NCBI GenBank assembly: GCA_026709725.1 | Contig: JAPOSK010000165.1 | Coordinates: forward strand, 1 to 10,132 | Origin: Paracoccaceae bacterium | GTDB taxonomy: Bacteria; Pseudomonadota; Alphaproteobacteria; Rhodobacterales; Rhodobacteraceae | Direction of reading: 5' to 3' | DNA: 10,132 bases | Part shown: one piece after another, positions 1-7,281 of the stretch | Position numbering within the stretch: position 1 is the first letter of the stretch | Layout of the letters: each line of letters opens with the position of its first letter | The notes under the pieces: generated by a model | Told to the model about the DNA's origin: nothing | Database searches by the model: none | The model's input: only the letters and a program-made list of their open reading frames with translations | Program-made: the position numbers and the translations under genes

Positions 1-42
1 ATGGGGACATGTCTCGATGAAGAGCGGGAGACAGGGGAGTGA
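1..42 (+). CDS. 3' end of a possible upstream gene (partial)
   Basis: Frame 1 is open from the window edge to a TGA at 40-42, giving a visible tail of 13 codons ending Glu-Thr-Gly-Glu. The stop overlaps the GTG start of the next gene as GTGA, the typical arrangement of translationally coupled genes. The ATG at position 1 may be an internal codon or chance. The tail is too short to identify a family. The main alternative is that this is only the leader of the ATPase gene: its GGGAG at 26-30 also serves as that gene's ribosome binding site. Confidence 0.35.
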   Translation: MGTCLDEERETGE

Positions 43-1652
43 TCGTGGGTCCCGATACACCGGAGCACTGGCGGTTCTACGGCCGGGCTGAAGAATTGAA
101 GAGATTGGGCCGCCAGCTGGCACCCAAACGCGGATTCCACCCGAAGCGTATCCAGGGTCGGCGGGGCATCGGCAAAACCGAACTTCTGGTCGAGGTTGGG
201 CGGCGGGCGAATGGCCAGCCGCCGGTGCTGATTTTCGATCTCAAACCGGCAACAGCTGAAGATCCTCACACACGTGTCAGCCGTCTGGTTGAGGCGGCAA
301 GGACACATCTTCCCGCAGATAAACACACCGCCTGGCCGCCTCCCGATCACCGGCATTATGACTCGCCATGTGAACGTTTTGTTGACCTTGTGGCCGCTCT
401 CCTCGATTGCGGCATTGCGGTTGGCCTCGACGAGTTCCATCTGGCCCGACCATTGGGTCTTGATGCAAAATACAAGATCATGATTGATGCACGTCAACGG
501 GTGGGGTCACCACCAACGCCGGGCCGTCTTTTCGTCCTGGGTTCGCACCAGCAGCAACTTCTGGAGATGTTCGCCAGCGACCAGCCTCTCCATCAGCGGA
601 TCACGGCTGGTATCGCGCTGAAGGCGTGGCGTGTGCCGACAGTGCTCGAGATGGCATGTGAGCAGGGTCTTCTCAGTTTCCCAGGACGGTTCCTGACCCT
701 CTGGACTGCCTTCGGGGGCATTCCGCGTGCCTGGGAAGACTTCATCGCGGATGAGGACGAAACCCGTCTTCCGGACATGACTCGCTGGTCTTCCGACCAG
801 GTGTGGCGGGCAGCCTTCATCAGCCACCAGGAAGCGCTTCTGGAACGGTCATCCGATGAGCGGTTTGATGACAAGGCCACGATAGAGCTCAGCAATCCAC
901 AGCGTGCGATCCTCATGCATCTCGGACAGCGCAAGCCGAGGGGGGACATCTATGATCGTGTACGAGCCGCCCTTGGTGAGACAATCGAGGGTGAGGGGAT
1001 GAACAGGCGGGCATTCGAGGCCGGTCTCCACCTGCTGATCCGTCACCTGGATCTGATTGAGGTTCTTGCACCATTTGATGGTGATGGCACGCCCCGTCTC
1101 CAGCTTGTCGATAATCCAACCCTTTTCCAGCTGCATGTCTTCCCCGAGCTCTGGTCCGGATACGAGCGTGTGAAGAGCGTGCATTCCCCGAACCTGTCCA
1201 CCCGCCGCATGGCCCGTCTGGAAACCCTTGAGGGTCAGGCACTTGAGCGGCTGACCGAAGGGGCTCTCAAGGCCATCCGCCCCGATGACTGGATCCTCCG
1301 CAATGCGTGGAACCAGTGTCCCAATGGCCGTGAGGTCGATCTCCTGGCCATCGCGGAGGATACCACCCGCTCCCGTGCTCAGGTGACAATTGCCAGCTGC
1401 AAGCGCAACGCGAACCGGCATCTCCGCGGTGCTGAGGCACTTGATGATACCAGTGTCGCCTTCCTTGCACAGGCCCGGGCAGGCCGACGGGATCTCGGAT
1501 TGCCGGAACGCCCTGACGAGACGCTTCTCGTCAGCCCCGAATTCACGCCAGAGGCCCGGGAGCAGATGATCGCCCGCGGCCGCAGGACGCTGGACATCCG
1601 TGGCATGGCCCGGCTCTGCGGAATCCCCCTGCCGGCACCCCATTCTGCATGA
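39..1652 (+). CDS. AAA/STAND-type ATPase with C-terminal PD-(D/E)XK-like domain
   Basis: A 537-residue cytoplasmic P-loop ATPase of the archaeal-ATPase-like type. Visible motifs are Walker A GRRGIGKT (40-47), Walker B hydrophobic-LDE (127-132), a sensor-1-like strand FVLGSH (165-170) and a GGIPR sensor-2-like turn (226-230). Residues about 283-360 look like a winged helix. The C-terminal part (about 395-525) resembles the PD-(D/E)XK fold attached to many such ATPases: a helix with Glu398/Glu404, REVDLLA with Asp434, then a strand ending IASCK with Lys455. The usual E-x-K glutamate is replaced by Ser453, so the nuclease may be variant or dead. The start is GTG 39, with GGGAG 8 nt upstream; GTG 45, behind AGGGGAG, is an equally good alternative. 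An in-frame stop at 18-20 rules out a longer protein. It probably follows an upstream gene in an operon and is convergent with the giant helicase. Substrate and role are unknown; DNA defence or repair is an inference. Confidence 0.85.
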   Translation: MIVGPDTPEHWRFYGRAEELKRLGRQLAPKRGFHPKRIQGRRGIGKTELLVEVGRRANGQPPVLIFDLKPATAEDPHTRVSRLVEAARTHLPADKHTAWPPPDHRHYDSPCERFVDLVAALLDCGIAVGLDEFHLARPLGLDAKYKIMIDARQRVGSPPTPGRLFVLGSHQQQLLEMFASDQPLHQRITAGIALKAWRVPTVLEMACEQGLLSFPGRFLTLWTAFGGIPRAWEDFIADEDETRLPDMTRWSSDQVWRAAFISHQEALLERSSDERFDDKATIELSNPQRAILMHLGQRKPRGDIYDRVRAALGETIEGEGMNRRAFEAGLHLLIRHLDLIEVLAPFDGDGTPRLQLVDNPTLFQLHVFPELWSGYERVKSVHSPNLSTRRMARLETLEGQALERLTEGALKAIRPDDWILRNAWNQCPNGREVDLLAIAEDTTRSRAQVTIASCKRNANRHLRGAEALDDTSVAFLAQARAGRRDLGLPERPDETLLVSPEFTPEAREQMIARGRRTLDIRGMARLCGIPLPAPHSA

Positions 1653-1827: not shown

Positions 1828-4800
1828 CTATCGATCCGGCTCGAAGATGAGTGAGGGCACGATGACCTCCCATGCATCGCATTTCAGGATGTGGTGCCAT
1901 TCCGGATCGGACATATCACGGTTCCGGGCTATCACGGCAAATACCGATACCGACCGGCAGCGCATACCGGGTGGTGGCCTGAAAGCCCTGGCAAGACGCC
2001 CAACGACCCGACCTTCCCAATCGCACAGGGTCCAAACCCCGCCCCTGCCAACCTTTACCTGAAGACAGTCACCAACGGACAACGCCCTGATGGCCTTATG
2101 GACAGGATCATTGGCACGGTAACGTCCGGCGAAACTCAGATCGACATCCTTCAGTGCCAGTTGGACATGCCGGAATTGCATGGACTCGGTGCACGGCGGA
2201 AGCTGGACCGCTTTCCGACGGATTGCGGCCGGATGGTCAAGCAGCACAGAATGGGATCCACCAGAGCCATCCATCCTCGCCAGCGTCAGTGTCTGCTGTG
2301 CCCGGGTCATCGCAACATAGTAGAGCCGTCGCGGTGCATCCGCATCCTCATTGCGGTCAAAATGGCCCCAGTCACCGTCGAGAACAGCGACATGATCGAA
2401 CTCCAGCCCCTTTGCGCGATGGGCCGTCAGCAGAAGCAATCCCTGCTGACGCCGGCGGATCTCACGTCCCCACTCAGCCAACCACTCAATGAAGTGTTCT
2501 GCCGGCCTGTCGCCATCACCAGTTTCAAGTCCGTGCTCACTGACAGCCTGACGCAGCAGGTCGTGCCACGGATCGGCAGGACGCGTCTCTGTCCATTTGT
2601 GCAGCACCGCCCTGTTGACAATTTTCTGTTCGGGTCGGCGGAGCCATTCAACAAATGTCCGGGTCTCCCGCAACTGCCAGAAACCCGGAATGTCCTCACT
2701 TGCCACCTGTGCCCGGATTTGATCTGCCATATCATGGCCCTCACAGAACGCCCGCACCGGGACCAGCGAGTCCCACCTTCGTGCAATCACCGCACATCGT
2801 GCCCAGTCCCAATCCGGCGCAAGCTCCGAGAGACGCAGCAATTCCGTCATCACAGCGCGGGCCTGGTGAACGCGATCACCGCCGGCCGAAAGGATCTGAA
2901 CCCTCCCCTGCGAGACGGGATCCAGGGATGTCCATTTCCCACCTGGTGCGGCCTCCTTGCGAGCATGGTCGACAGTGATCGGATGCTCTGCCTTCATCCG
3001 GTTTCGAGCCGGTGCGATCACCGCGTTGGCAGCCGCCACAATGTGCGCCGATGAGCGGTAATTTGCGGTGAGATAGACGGGCTTCGGCCCATAGTCAGCC
3101 TCGAATCTGCGGATAAATTCCACCGATGCACCGTTGAAGGCATAGATGTTCTGATCATCGTCACCGACAACGAACAGGGTGAGCCTGCTTTCCTCATCAT
3201 CCAGCGTCCGTCCTGCCAGTGCCGAGATCAACGCATACTGTTCGGAGCCAATATCCTGGTATTCGTCGACGAGAATCCAGCGGAATCCGGCAAGCAGACG
3301 CGCGCGACGTTCATCCGCTTCCTCCGGCAACAATTCCTCACCCTTGAGCAGGGCGCCCGCACGGCACATCACATCCCTGAATGCCTTGGTGCCGGGACGC
3401 TCCGGTCGATCGGCAAAGCTCTCTCCGGTCAGACGCATCGCAAGTGCATGACAGGTCAGTACCGTCACTCCACGCGCTTCGCTCCCGATCATCTCCACCA
3501 GCCGGCGGCGGATATCGACAGCAGCGTGACGATTGTAGGCAAGGGCGAGGATGCTCCGGGCATCCTCCCGCCTGACACGAATGAGGTATGCGATGCGGTG
3601 GACAAGCACGCGCGTCTTGCCTGACCCCGGGCCGGCAAGCACCAGCACATTGGTCCGTTCCCGCTTGTCGGCAACGATGCGCTGCTGGACAGGATTATTC
3701 AGGCTCTCGACAATCGCTTGCCAGGACTTCGGTGTCGTCTGCCGTCCAATCTCCTGATCCCGCCCCGGCATCCACCGCGCCAGGAATGTCTTTTCATCAA
3801 GATTAAAATAATCCATGGCGAGGCGCAGTGCGTCCCGAATTGATTCAAGACCACGCTCGGCAAACTCGACCATGACGTGGATCTGCAGAATCTGACCCCG
3901 GTAGTGGAGCGCAAGAGGCTCGAAATCCACACCGGAAAACCCGCGCCGTTCCCGCCGTTTCAACCGGACTGTCATGGCCGGACGGAACACGGCCAACCCC
4001 TTGTTGAGGCGGATCACCTCCTGCTCATGAAGCCAGAGCAGGGCACGGTCCAGGAGTTTGCTGGGATGTCGGCTTTTCAGACCCAGATCGGATTCGATCG
4101 TCTTCAGGAGCTCTCCGAGGGTGGTCTTGCTCAGACAATCCATGCCGCGACTGCCGGGCGGCAAACGATCAAGCAGATGCCCCAGCAGCAATCCGGCAGC
4201 CTCACGGCGGCGTCCGGCAATCTCTTCCAGATTCTCCCATTCGCGATGCAGCGTGATTCGTGCAGTCTCCCGATCAGATTTGCGGACAGTGAGACTGCCA
4301 CCGGCCCCGTCTTCGCCACGCCCGTCATTGGCAAGACTCCGGACAATCCGCTGCAGCCGTTCCGGAAGTGGATCCGCCAGCCCCTGATCCCGCAGCTTCT
4401 GTGCAGCGATGCGGAGATGGAGAGACGAACTGTCTCCCTTCCCCATATCAGGTGCAGCCTCCCGCATATGGGCAATGAGAGCTCTCTCCAGCGCATCCGC
4501 CTCTTCGAAGCGCTTGCGCGAAGAGCGCTCCACCCAGTTATGCACGAATGCGGTCAGTTCCGTGTCGTTGCTCGCGATTCCGATCTTTTCAAGATCGTAC
4601 AGGGCACCGCGCACGCGTTCCGGGCTCAGCCCTGTGATCGCCATTAAGTCGTCCGTGCTGATTCCTTCATCAGCGTTGGCACCGATCAGTGCTCCGGTGA
4701 TCCTCTCCAGCTGCCCGCGATATGTGTCCGGAATATCCACTTTTGAAAGCCGCTGTTTTGCCTGATCAAGCGATTTGACCTGCAGGGAAGACGGGAACAC

Positions 4801-7020
4801 CTTGACGACATTCTCCTCGCGGGTCAGGAGCTGGCAATCCTCGAGCCAGGCAATGGCCGTGCGCACACGGGTATCGTCCGTTGCCGAGTCGCGCTCGAAC
4901 ACCTTCTCGTCATCCTCACCGAGAATTTCACCTGCAGTTGCGACAACATCACCCTTGAAGCGCTTCTTGCGATCAAGATTGCGCAGGGCTCTGAGAATTC
5001 CGTGGATTTCCGCTCGGGTGAGCCGTGAACGCGCCGACATGCCGAACTGATGCTCGACATCATCCGTCGCATAAAGAAGCACGCAGCGCGCCGGTTCACG
5101 GTCACGTCCTGCGCGGCCAGCCTCCTGCAGGTAATTCTCCAGTGAACCCGTTATGTCGGCATGAATGACCAGTCGTACATTCGGCTTATCGATTCCCATG
5201 CCGAAAGCGTTGGTAGCGGCAATGACACGGAGTTCGCCAGCGATAAATTGCCGCTGTACCTCTTTCTTGGTCTCCGGGAGGAGGCCTGCATGGAAACGAT
5301 CCGCGGCTTCCCCCTTGAGTTTCAGGAACTCGGCGATGTCCTCCGCCTGGCGGCGTGTTGCGCAGTAGACAATTGCGCCACCGGGCATGCCGGTTGGCAA
5401 ATGCGAGGTCAGGACCTGGTGGATGGCGGAATACTTCTCTCCGCCAGTGGTTGGGATCACTTCGAATTCAAGATTCGCGCGTTTGGCACCGCCATCAAAC
5501 ACGGCAAGTTCAATCCCGATTTTCTCCCGGAAATGCCGGACAATATCATCGACAACATCAGGCCTCGCGGTGGCCGTCAGGCACAGGACGGGAGGCACAG
5601 GCCTGCCACCGGCGCTTTCACCGATGAAACGCCCCACATAGCGATAGTCGGGCCGGAAGTCGTGCCCCCAGCGCGACAGGCAGTGCGCCTCGTCGAGGAC
5701 CCAGGCACCGATTTCGCGCTGTTTCAGTGCACCTCTCAGGGAGCGCGAGCGCAACTGTTCGGGTGAGATCAGCAGGATGCTGGCATCCCCCATTCTGATC
5801 TTCTCCAGGGAATCAGCGCGTTCCGGCATCGACAGGAGCCCATTGACGGTTACGCAGTTCTCAATACCGCGCTTTTCCAGGCCATTGACCTGATCAGCCA
5901 TCAGGGCCACCAGAGGTGAGATCACAACCGTCAGGGCTCCGGTCTTGTTGTAGCGCGAGAGGGCCGGAATCTGATAGCAGAGAGACTTTCCCGTCCCTGT
6001 GGGAAGAATTCCCAGCACATGCCGTCCCGCCATTGCCTCCTCAACAATCGCCTGCTGCATGGACCTGCCCTCATGCCGGGGTTCAGATCGGAAACTGTCG
6101 AATCCGAACCAGCGCTTCAACTCCTTCTCTGCACTATGGACATCCCGGCACCAGCCGCATGACGGATCATTGCAGGCGGTGTCCCTGAGTTCGCGCACAT
6201 ACCGGCCCGCTTCCGGGAACTGATGGCGCACCCAAGGCGGCATCACCGAGTTGCCGCCCGCAACCGACAGCCACGCCAGGGCATAGGCCAGTGACCAACC
6301 GAACCTGTCCGGATTTGCGATAAATTCCTGCGCCCTGGTTGCGCAGGCGCTGGTCTCCAGCAACTGTCTGATCGCTGCGCCCGCACTGTCTGCATCGGGC
6401 CGTGCCGTCTTTCGCAGTTGACAGAACAGCTGATCCAGAGCGCGATCCTGACCCCCAGCGTCAGGTGTACACAGCCGGTGCCACGCGGTGAGGAGTTCAG
6501 AACGGGTCTTTGTCAGTGCCAGAAACTCATCATGGAAGAGATCAAGTGCCAGACGGGAATCAAGTTCGGGATCGTTCACCCGGCTGCGCACAAGACCCCC
6601 GTCCTTGTAATGCTTGACGAGGTGGTGGTACGGGTTACGGGGAAACGCAAGCGGGCTGAGACGGAGCGTGTCCACGACCGGCAAATTCAAAAGGCGGAGA
6701 TCCGGATTGGCTGCTTTCAGATGCGGCAGGTCGAAAGTGGTCAGGTTGTGCCCGAGGACGAATTCAGCCCCGTCCGCAAAGGTGTCCAGCCCGGACAGTG
6801 CATCAGCCAGACCGCGACTGCTGTCCGCATCCAGCTTCATGCGGGTATAGCTGTCATCGGTATCGTTGCGAACAGTGCCAATGGCGTGAATATCGCCGTT
6901 TTTCCAGACTTCGAGGTCAAGCGAGATACAACGCAACCGGAACAGGATGCCATCCCCGGATCTGGCCTGATCTGCATCCGGCGACCTGCGATCGACCGCG
7001 CCGTTCATGCGGACATCCAT
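1828..7020 (-). CDS. DEDD exonuclease-RecQ helicase-UvrD helicase fusion protein
   Basis: A 1730-residue DNA-processing enzyme. Residues about 28-168 are a DEDD 3'-5' exonuclease: SLDLE (Asp35, Glu37), GHNLTTFD (Asp97) and NDPELD (Asp154). Residues 283-295 hold a C-x4-C-x2-C-x3-H cluster. Residues about 300-660 are a RecQ SF2 helicase: TGTGKS (341-346), DEAH (443-446), aromatic loop SRWGHDFRPDY (449-459), LTATA (481-485) and QEAGRAGRD (632-640). The canonical RecQ cysteine zinc module does not follow. About 665-1105 is unassigned, with winged-helix-like pieces. About 1107-1580 is a UvrD-type SF1 helicase: AGPGSGKT (1129-1136), VDEYQD (1251-1256), GDDDQNIYAF (1286-1295), a TAHRAKGLEFD stretch (1532-1542) and YVAMTRAQ (1568-1575). 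The tail (1630-1730) is unassigned. Both motors look catalytically intact. ATG 7018-7020 is the likely start: an in-frame stop lies at 7033-7035 and no clear Shine-Dalgarno is seen; ATG at codon 5 is an alternative. The order exonuclease-RecQ matches human WRN; the added UvrD motor is unusual. Confidence 0.95.
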   Translation of the reverse strand: MDVRMNGAVDRRSPDADQARSGDGILFRLRCISLDLEVWKNGDIHAIGTVRNDTDDSYTRMKLDADSSRGLADALSGLDTFADGAEFVLGHNLTTFDLPHLKAANPDLRLLNLPVVDTLRLSPLAFPRNPYHHLVKHYKDGGLVRSRVNDPELDSRLALDLFHDEFLALTKTRSELLTAWHRLCTPDAGGQDRALDQLFCQLRKTARPDADSAGAAIRQLLETSACATRAQEFIANPDRFGWSLAYALAWLSVAGGNSVMPPWVRHQFPEAGRYVRELRDTACNDPSCGWCRDVHSAEKELKRWFGFDSFRSEPRHEGRSMQQAIVEEAMAGRHVLGILPTGTGKSLCYQIPALSRYNKTGALTVVISPLVALMADQVNGLEKRGIENCVTVNGLLSMPERADSLEKIRMGDASILLISPEQLRSRSLRGALKQREIGAWVLDEAHCLSRWGHDFRPDYRYVGRFIGESAGGRPVPPVLCLTATARPDVVDDIVRHFREKIGIELAVFDGGAKRANLEFEVIPTTGGEKYSAIHQVLTSHLPTGMPGGAIVYCATRRQAEDIAEFLKLKGEAADRFHAGLLPETKKEVQRQFIAGELRVIAATNAFGMGIDKPNVRLVIHADITGSLENYLQEAGRAGRDREPARCVLLYATDDVEHQFGMSARSRLTRAEIHGILRALRNLDRKKRFKGDVVATAGEILGEDDEKVFERDSATDDTRVRTAIAWLEDCQLLTREENVVKVFPSSLQVKSLDQAKQRLSKVDIPDTYRGQLERITGALIGANADEGISTDDLMAITGLSPERVRGALYDLEKIGIASNDTELTAFVHNWVERSSRKRFEEADALERALIAHMREAAPDMGKGDSSSLHLRIAAQKLRDQGLADPLPERLQRIVRSLANDGRGEDGAGGSLTVRKSDRETARITLHREWENLEEIAGRRREAAGLLLGHLLDRLPPGSRGMDCLSKTTLGELLKTIESDLGLKSRHPSKLLDRALLWLHEQEVIRLNKGLAVFRPAMTVRLKRRERRGFSGVDFEPLALHYRGQILQIHVMVEFAERGLESIRDALRLAMDYFNLDEKTFLARWMPGRDQEIGRQTTPKSWQAIVESLNNPVQQRIVADKRERTNVLVLAGPGSGKTRVLVHRIAYLIRVRREDARSILALAYNRHAAVDIRRRLVEMIGSEARGVTVLTCHALAMRLTGESFADRPERPGTKAFRDVMCRAGALLKGEELLPEEADERRARLLAGFRWILVDEYQDIGSEQYALISALAGRTLDDEESRLTLFVVGDDDQNIYAFNGASVEFIRRFEADYGPKPVYLTANYRSSAHIVAAANAVIAPARNRMKAEHPITVDHARKEAAPGGKWTSLDPVSQGRVQILSAGGDRVHQARAVMTELLRLSELAPDWDWARCAVIARRWDSLVPVRAFCEGHDMADQIRAQVASEDIPGFWQLRETRTFVEWLRRPEQKIVNRAVLHKWTETRPADPWHDLLRQAVSEHGLETGDGDRPAEHFIEWLAEWGREIRRRQQGLLLLTAHRAKGLEFDHVAVLDGDWGHFDRNEDADAPRRLYYVAMTRAQQTLTLARMDGSGGSHSVLLDHPAAIRRKAVQLPPCTESMQFRHVQLALKDVDLSFAGRYRANDPVHKAIRALSVGDCLQVKVGRGGVWTLCDWEGRVVGRLARAFRPPPGMRCRSVSVFAVIARNRDMSDPEWHHILKCDAWEVIVPSLIFEPDR

Positions 7021-7069
7021 TGCTTCAGGACGTCATCAGAGACGCCGGGGGATCCGGAGGCAGGAACAG

Positions 7070-7103
7070 CCCAACACCATTAACGGCCCAACACCATTAA
7101 CGG
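7070..7103. repeat. perfect 17-bp tandem direct repeat upstream of helicase gene
   Basis: CCCAACACCATTAACGG occurs twice head-to-tail without spacer, at 7070-7086 and 7087-7103. The block ends about 50 bp upstream of the helicase start codon, so it could overlap the promoter and act as a tandem operator. A recent slippage duplication is the simpler alternative. No clear -35/-10 pair is seen around it. Confidence 0.85.
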
Positions 7104-7240
7104 GTTGCGGGCAGCCCGGCAGGATCAATGCCGATATCCAGAGCATCATCGTGGCAATTGGGCGGACTGCGCATTCCGAACGGGGTCGATGGCTCCAACC
7201 CGCTTGCCCGGGGGTGGTCTGTTTGATGCCCGAAAGGATC

Positions 7241-7271
7241 GGCAAGCGGTCAGGCATCCCGACCGCTTGTC
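7241..7271 (-). terminator. hairpin after lipoprotein gene, likely terminator
   Basis: CAAGCGGTC (7243-7251) pairs perfectly with GACCGCTTG (7261-7269). A G-T wobble and a further G-C pair extend the stem to 11 bp around a 9-nt loop. It starts 10 bp past the lipoprotein stop codon on the - strand. Only a short CCTTTC follows rather than a full T-run, so it may be a weak intrinsic terminator or a 3'-end stabiliser. It separates the lipoprotein transcript from the downstream helicase gene. Confidence 0.5.
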
Positions 7272-7281
7272 TCATATCGGC

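Follow-up and report, generated by a model that had tools for sequence, protein, structure and literature searches.

The 10,132-nucleotide window analysed here, from a Paracoccaceae bacterium, carries on its minus strand a single intact frame (7020–1828) for a protein of 1730 residues, in which a DnaQ-like DEDD domain, a RecQ core, a putative winged-helix linker, a UvrD motor and a C-terminal domain follow one another. This exonuclease–RecQ–UvrD architecture is real and confirmed. Our reading, held with slightly better than even confidence, is that the fusion is a defence protein that works on its own, spreads by horizontal transfer and processes the DNA of invaders; its domains point to DNA. 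This would fit a solo gene that is patchily distributed, appears to have moved between lineages and has defence genes beside several of its copies.

The presence of all three enzymes in one polypeptide had been proposed in a first-pass annotation and is borne out by the intact frame (1828..7020) and by full-length homologues among the matches listed. A protein search scored 7995 candidates, 4708 of them at E ≤ 0.001 with helicase-only proteins among these; the best 120 of the 4708 are all full length (1666–1766 residues, 69–100% identity), which rules out a chance fusion or assembly artefact and supplies the uncharacterised database homologues that the annotation had expected. Its further statement that no characterised bacterial example was known is consistent with the literature, in that no published description of a DEDD–RecQ–UvrD architecture was found in the titles and abstract starts of open-licence articles, taken without supplements, and a listing elsewhere is possible. 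No PADLOC 2.0.0 family covers the fusion protein in full among the best 25 of 81 matching families. Interrupted copies also occur, for example G279 (one TAG) and G286 and G101 (two frames each); A1–A5, A10 and A11 exclude the interrupted L011 and L016, A2, A5, A10 and A11 also L046, A10 also L034, and A4 and A5 also the plasmid rows L025–L034.

Both motors are supported, with recognisable RecQ and SF1A cores whose ATPase residues are kept in 120 of 120 relatives among the matches listed. The RecQ core (residues ~296–659, 5044..6135, minus strand as for every domain below) has the signature motifs of its family, scores 299 bits with recQ_fam against a cut-off of 219.8, and keeps the Walker, DEAH and motif VI residues in the relatives among the matches listed. 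The recQ model is matched at positions 4–337 of 591 only, and the four-cysteine zinc site of RecQ-Ct is lacking, with two cysteines in residues 641–760. A Pfam scan of the whole protein at E ≤ 1 gave no hit to HRDC, a domain present in many RecQ helicases but not all. Directly N-terminal to RecQ motif 0 lies a triad, Cys283, Cys288 and Cys291 (6148..6174), which is cysteine in all 240 listed relatives (two sets of 120) and might conceivably be a zinc or iron–sulphur site. The linker that follows the core (residues ~660–1100, 3721..5043) may contain winged-helix elements, as suggested by the structure model and by a metal-dependent repressor that a PDB profile search matched weakly (0.0016). 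Beyond it, the UvrD-like helicase (residues ~1103–1590, 2251..3714) has the SF1A core with the UvrD N and C domains characteristic of UvrD/Rep, and the C-terminal domain (residues ~1600–1730, 1831..2223), strand-rich in the model, also occurs in a stand-alone UvrD-like protein of Sphaerotilus. An identification of this last domain as HIRAN or another named domain was rejected, as there was no significant PDB match (best 0.056, to a ribosomal protein). On a plasmid of Hymenobacter swuensis (L088:2434-10591) two genes overlap by 17 bases, the first (1421 residues) having a long, different N-terminal part and ending inside a RecQ-like core and the second (1302 residues) encoding the remainder of that core and UvrD; judged by sequence, the pair is a split or frameshifted RecQ–UvrD relative.

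The N-terminal domain (residues ~30–165, 6526..6933) is DnaQ-like and of the DEDD type. In the window protein it matches no Pfam family, DNA_pol_B_exo1 is matched by four of 32 relatives (best 9e-5), and the fold-match lists for the structure model, filled by RecQ, contain no exonuclease. A profile built from the 32 relatives finds Staphylococcus aureus DinG (8zef) as its best PDB match, at 2.4e-6; comparison with a very shallow set of three annotated DEDDh exonucleases gave a probability of 0.2% and no significance. The four metal-binding acids of the three Exo motifs, D35, E37, D97 and D154, are present and invariant across the 32 aligned sequences. Among the first 120 listed relatives D35/E37 fall in gaps in five and one D154 is replaced by Glu, among the second 120 D35 falls in a gap in one, and the four acids are otherwise the same. 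The histidine (DEDDh) or tyrosine (DEDDy) that would act as general base is replaced by Asn149 (codon 6574–6576), which pairs with His149 of DinG when counted on the printed profile alignment, which is ungapped at that point. Asn149 is invariant in the 32 aligned sequences and is found in 119 of 120 and 118 of 120 listed relatives, with Ser in the remaining three and His or Tyr in none of the 240; by eye, the third motif of a Deinococcus copy likewise reads Asn-x4-Asp. The DinG report (PMC12345164) gives D10, E12, D95, H149 and D154 as a DEDDh site, alanine at which nearly abolished exonuclease activity. What was annotated as a DEDD exonuclease thus stands as a domain with intact metal ligands, whereas Asn149 in the place of the general base makes its activity doubtful, though still conceivable because the four acids are kept.

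A search with A3 for stand-alone relatives of the DEDD domain gave 847 matches, but most of the 120 listed carry the following DEAD domain and are thus pieces of the fusion protein. Rhodobacter sp. CZR27 (L091:5119-10443) encodes a RecQ–UvrD fusion of 1774 residues, in whose first 294 residues DEDD motifs cannot be seen and a PDB match is lacking; the N-terminal module of the family may accordingly be exchangeable.

It is quite possible, if somewhat short of an even chance, that the DEDD domain is catalytically dead and does no more than hold single-stranded DNA or regulate the motors, leaving a two-motor translocase that can be compatible with either defence or repair. Asn149 takes the place of the catalytic histidine whose replacement by alanine was so damaging in DinG (PMC12345164), and a review presents pExoDinG as a DEDDy-like domain that is probably inactive and perhaps nucleic-acid binding. 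A dead domain, however, need not keep all its metal ligands, and D35, E37, D97 and D154 are invariant in the 32 aligned sequences and nearly so in the 240 listed. The combination of retained ligands and a fixed asparagine suggests to us that selection has maintained an altered site and that the site is not in decay. Lys136, identical in 240 of 240 listed relatives and lying in a loop that is poorly modelled in the structure prediction, could, as a guess, take part in such a site.

The distribution of the gene is patchy. It is found in 10 of 289 sampled genomes of Alphaproteobacteria and 16 of 397 of Pseudomonadota, the window's own genome being counted in both, and in five of the nine genomes of the window's genus. 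Twenty plasmid records carry at least 80% of the fusion length; plasmid relatives come from Alpha- and Gammaproteobacteria and, near 30% identity, from Cyanobacteriota, Bacteroidota, Campylobacterota and Deinococcota. A phage-borne gene was considered and rejected, since in none of the 96 phage records with some match does it extend over 80% of the query length. Across groups the fusion protein is much more conserved than UvrD, which indicates horizontal transfer, also between phyla: identities of the fusion and of UvrD are, respectively, 75% and 39% in a Vicinamibacteraceae MAG (Acidobacteriota), 65% and 38% in two Poribacteria MAGs, 63% and 36% in an Arenicellales genome, and 76% and 44% in two alphaproteobacterial MAGs. 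The cross-phylum cases rest partly on MAGs, in which wrong binning is possible, and the safer ones are those on long contigs, namely Poribacteria (126 and 146 kb) and Arenicellales (3.1 Mb).

Synteny at the window's own site is consistent with mobility. Seven same-genus stretches (L092–L098, a further genome, G664, standing outside the count) place a junction at 7021..7281. To its right, lipoprotein, threonine aldolase and DUF1523 genes keep the order found in the genus; to its left, the window has the fusion gene and a second gene, described below, where relatives have a gene that we take to be CarD-like. The order CarD-like, lipoprotein, threonine aldolase, DUF1523 is conserved in the genus, the first two genes adjoining in the six stretches L093–L098 and, by coordinates, in L092. 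All four other same-genus genomes that carry the fusion have this site uninterrupted and their copies on other contigs. The flanks of three of those copies (L099, L101 and L102) share no gene family with one another or with the window, the contig of the fourth (L100) being too short to judge; three of the four copies are 87–89% identical mutually and only 59% to that of the window. We read this as insertion of the fusion gene at the window site, and a rearrangement is also possible because the contig begins 39 bases before the neighbouring gene.

That neighbour (39..1652, plus strand), convergent with the fusion gene, encodes an AAA protein of 537 residues that matches the candidate defence family PDC-S27 over nearly the full length of the model (PADLOC, 6.6e-35, residues 10–524). 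For PDC-S27, itself an untested candidate, enrichment in Archaea is reported (PMC12988326). The pairing is local to the window, because no relative of the PDC-S27 protein (E ≤ 1e-5) occurs in the genes of 35 fusion loci or 11 same-genus stretches. The end of this protein (residues ~440–480) reads by eye like a PD-(D/E)xK nuclease and has no PDB match by sequence.

Comparison of the same 35 loci gave no conserved operon partner. No family besides the fusion occurs in more than four of them, the maximum being an ABC ATPase, and the gene is therefore regarded as solo. The company it keeps was assessed by PADLOC (E ≤ 1e-15) in pools, families being counted rather than proteins. Of 292 neighbours selected, 192 were pooled, the 100 around plasmid copies being left out, as was L049, which resembles L025. 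The first pool gave 142 families in 98 neighbours from 12 loci and the second 22 families in 94 neighbours from 12 more, the latter including AbiEi, PD-Lambda-4, type IIG and PDC models. As a control, 98 proteins drawn from the 307 on 18 arbitrary stretches, which came from eight of the same genomes, gave 29 families, the best 25 of which are mostly DpdF/PsyrT-type models and consistent with one RecQ; by raw count the second pool is not above this control, which speaks against the defence reading. Fifty of the 192 neighbours, from 20 of the 24 loci, were also scanned singly. Strong matches over most of the protein appeared in seven of these 20 loci, a figure that is neither a rate nor a test because the neighbours were hand-chosen by size and position: LmuA and LmuB (Lamassu A and B), a DrmD-like protein and PDC-S68 (L055); a CBASS cyclase and phospholipase (L054); PtuA (Septu) and PDC-S06 (L056); a type III methyltransferase and PDC-S36 (L058); PDC-S01 (L060 and L009); and PD-Lambda-4_A with a type IIG match (L013). 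Also counting against defence, the other 13 gave no near-full-length defence match, those of L050 and L051 being partial only; ten of the singly scanned neighbours gave no defence match as one batch.

Among the wide plasmid neighbourhoods, RefSeq names place a type I R-M system ~1 kb from the Allochromatium copy and a type I-D CRISPR system ~4 kb from that of Thiothrix, whereas the other eight hold toxin–antitoxin, transposase, partition or unrelated genes, a balance that again weighs against defence. Two distant copies (35–39% identity; L060:2194-7341 and L061:6289-17535) have a common adjacent gene set encoding proteins of ~402, 552 and, several times, 760 residues, one with a partial PbeA match, and are possibly a partnered subfamily.

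We consider it unlikely, at perhaps one chance in several, that the fusion is an accessory DNA-repair or recombination enzyme, a bacterial functional counterpart of WRN acting by resection or remodelling on stalled forks and on damaged ends in host or plasmid DNA. The order of exonuclease and RecQ is that of WRN, both RecQ and UvrD belong to families of repair helicases, and one plasmid copy has partition genes on one side and secretion genes on the other. Relatives of both helicases have roles in repair too, and repair genes can be part of a genomic island, which we count against the defence reading. Exonuclease-DinG, the best match of the DEDD domain, is discussed with mitomycin C repair. 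Core repair genes, however, would not be expected to be patchy within a genus (five of nine), apparently transferred across phyla and accompanied by defence genes in several loci. It is improbable that the gene is a selfish or plasmid-maintenance element that aids replication or establishment of the island or plasmid carrying it, the defence genes merely sharing the island; although it occurs in the 20 plasmid records above and one copy adjoins parA/parB and replication genes, many copies are chromosomal and no replication or mobility gene recurs beside the fusion in 35 loci.

For a defence protein, we suggest that the fusion would load on phage or plasmid DNA undergoing replication or recombination, at its ends or where single and double strands meet, and that the RecQ and UvrD motors, both expected from their families to move 3' to 5', would then unwind and strip this DNA. 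The N-terminal DEDD domain would hold the 3' strand and cut it slowly or under control, if it is not dead; slow or controlled cutting is proposed because Asn takes the position of the general base, where His or Tyr would be usual, and this residue also makes a nuclease part questionable. The first-pass annotation had suggested that the parts could act on a common strand. Here we infer substrate, polarity, nuclease activity, target and cell outcome. A bolder and rather doubtful version is a widespread, uncharacterised immune machine made of one protein, its two motors belonging to different superfamilies, in which a new DEDD subtype, 'DEDDn', with the general base fixed as Asn, acts as a built-in brake that keeps the DNA-destroying protein harmless in a healthy cell until the motors are engaged by invading DNA or by a trigger, for example a phage SSB. 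If this were true, one gene would combine functions that RecBCD-like or Gabija-like systems divide among subunits, and its spread across phyla might mark a common, unnamed layer of immunity. An invariant asparagine where alanine almost kills a related exonuclease also poses a clean catalytic question.

One likeness is to WRN, with which the protein had been compared at the outset and in which a DEDD domain at the N terminus likewise precedes a RecQ core; WRN structures are matched by the RecQ part of the fusion. The parallel holds for domain order only; the fusion has Asn for the DEDDy Tyr of WRN, an extra UvrD motor and no HRDC in the Pfam scan. ExoDinG (S. aureus DinG, 8zef) likewise joins a DEDD exonuclease domain to a helicase, with the catalytic His149 where the fusion has Asn, and its helicase is DinG, reported as 5'–3'. 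The RecQ-like PADLOC models DpdF and PsyrT match the RecQ core at 5e-113 and 2.6e-88, but only the helicase core aligns, and canonical RecQ matches these models as well as or better than the fusion does. Gabija GajB and RecBCD/AddAB share UvrD-type motors with the fusion, whose UvrD half is matched by GajB models and structures over the helicase parts; unlike the single-protein fusion, these systems are multi-subunit, and GajA and RecB-type nucleases are absent from it in the Pfam scan. Hna is also a single helicase–nuclease protein, with domains different from those of the fusion, and its model is not among the best 25 of the 81 PADLOC families matched. The Hna report (PMC13381803) presents a 3'–5' single-stranded DNA exonuclease that is autoinhibited and activated by phage SSB, and by analogy Hna offers a possible precedent for a lone helicase–nuclease held off in the healthy cell.
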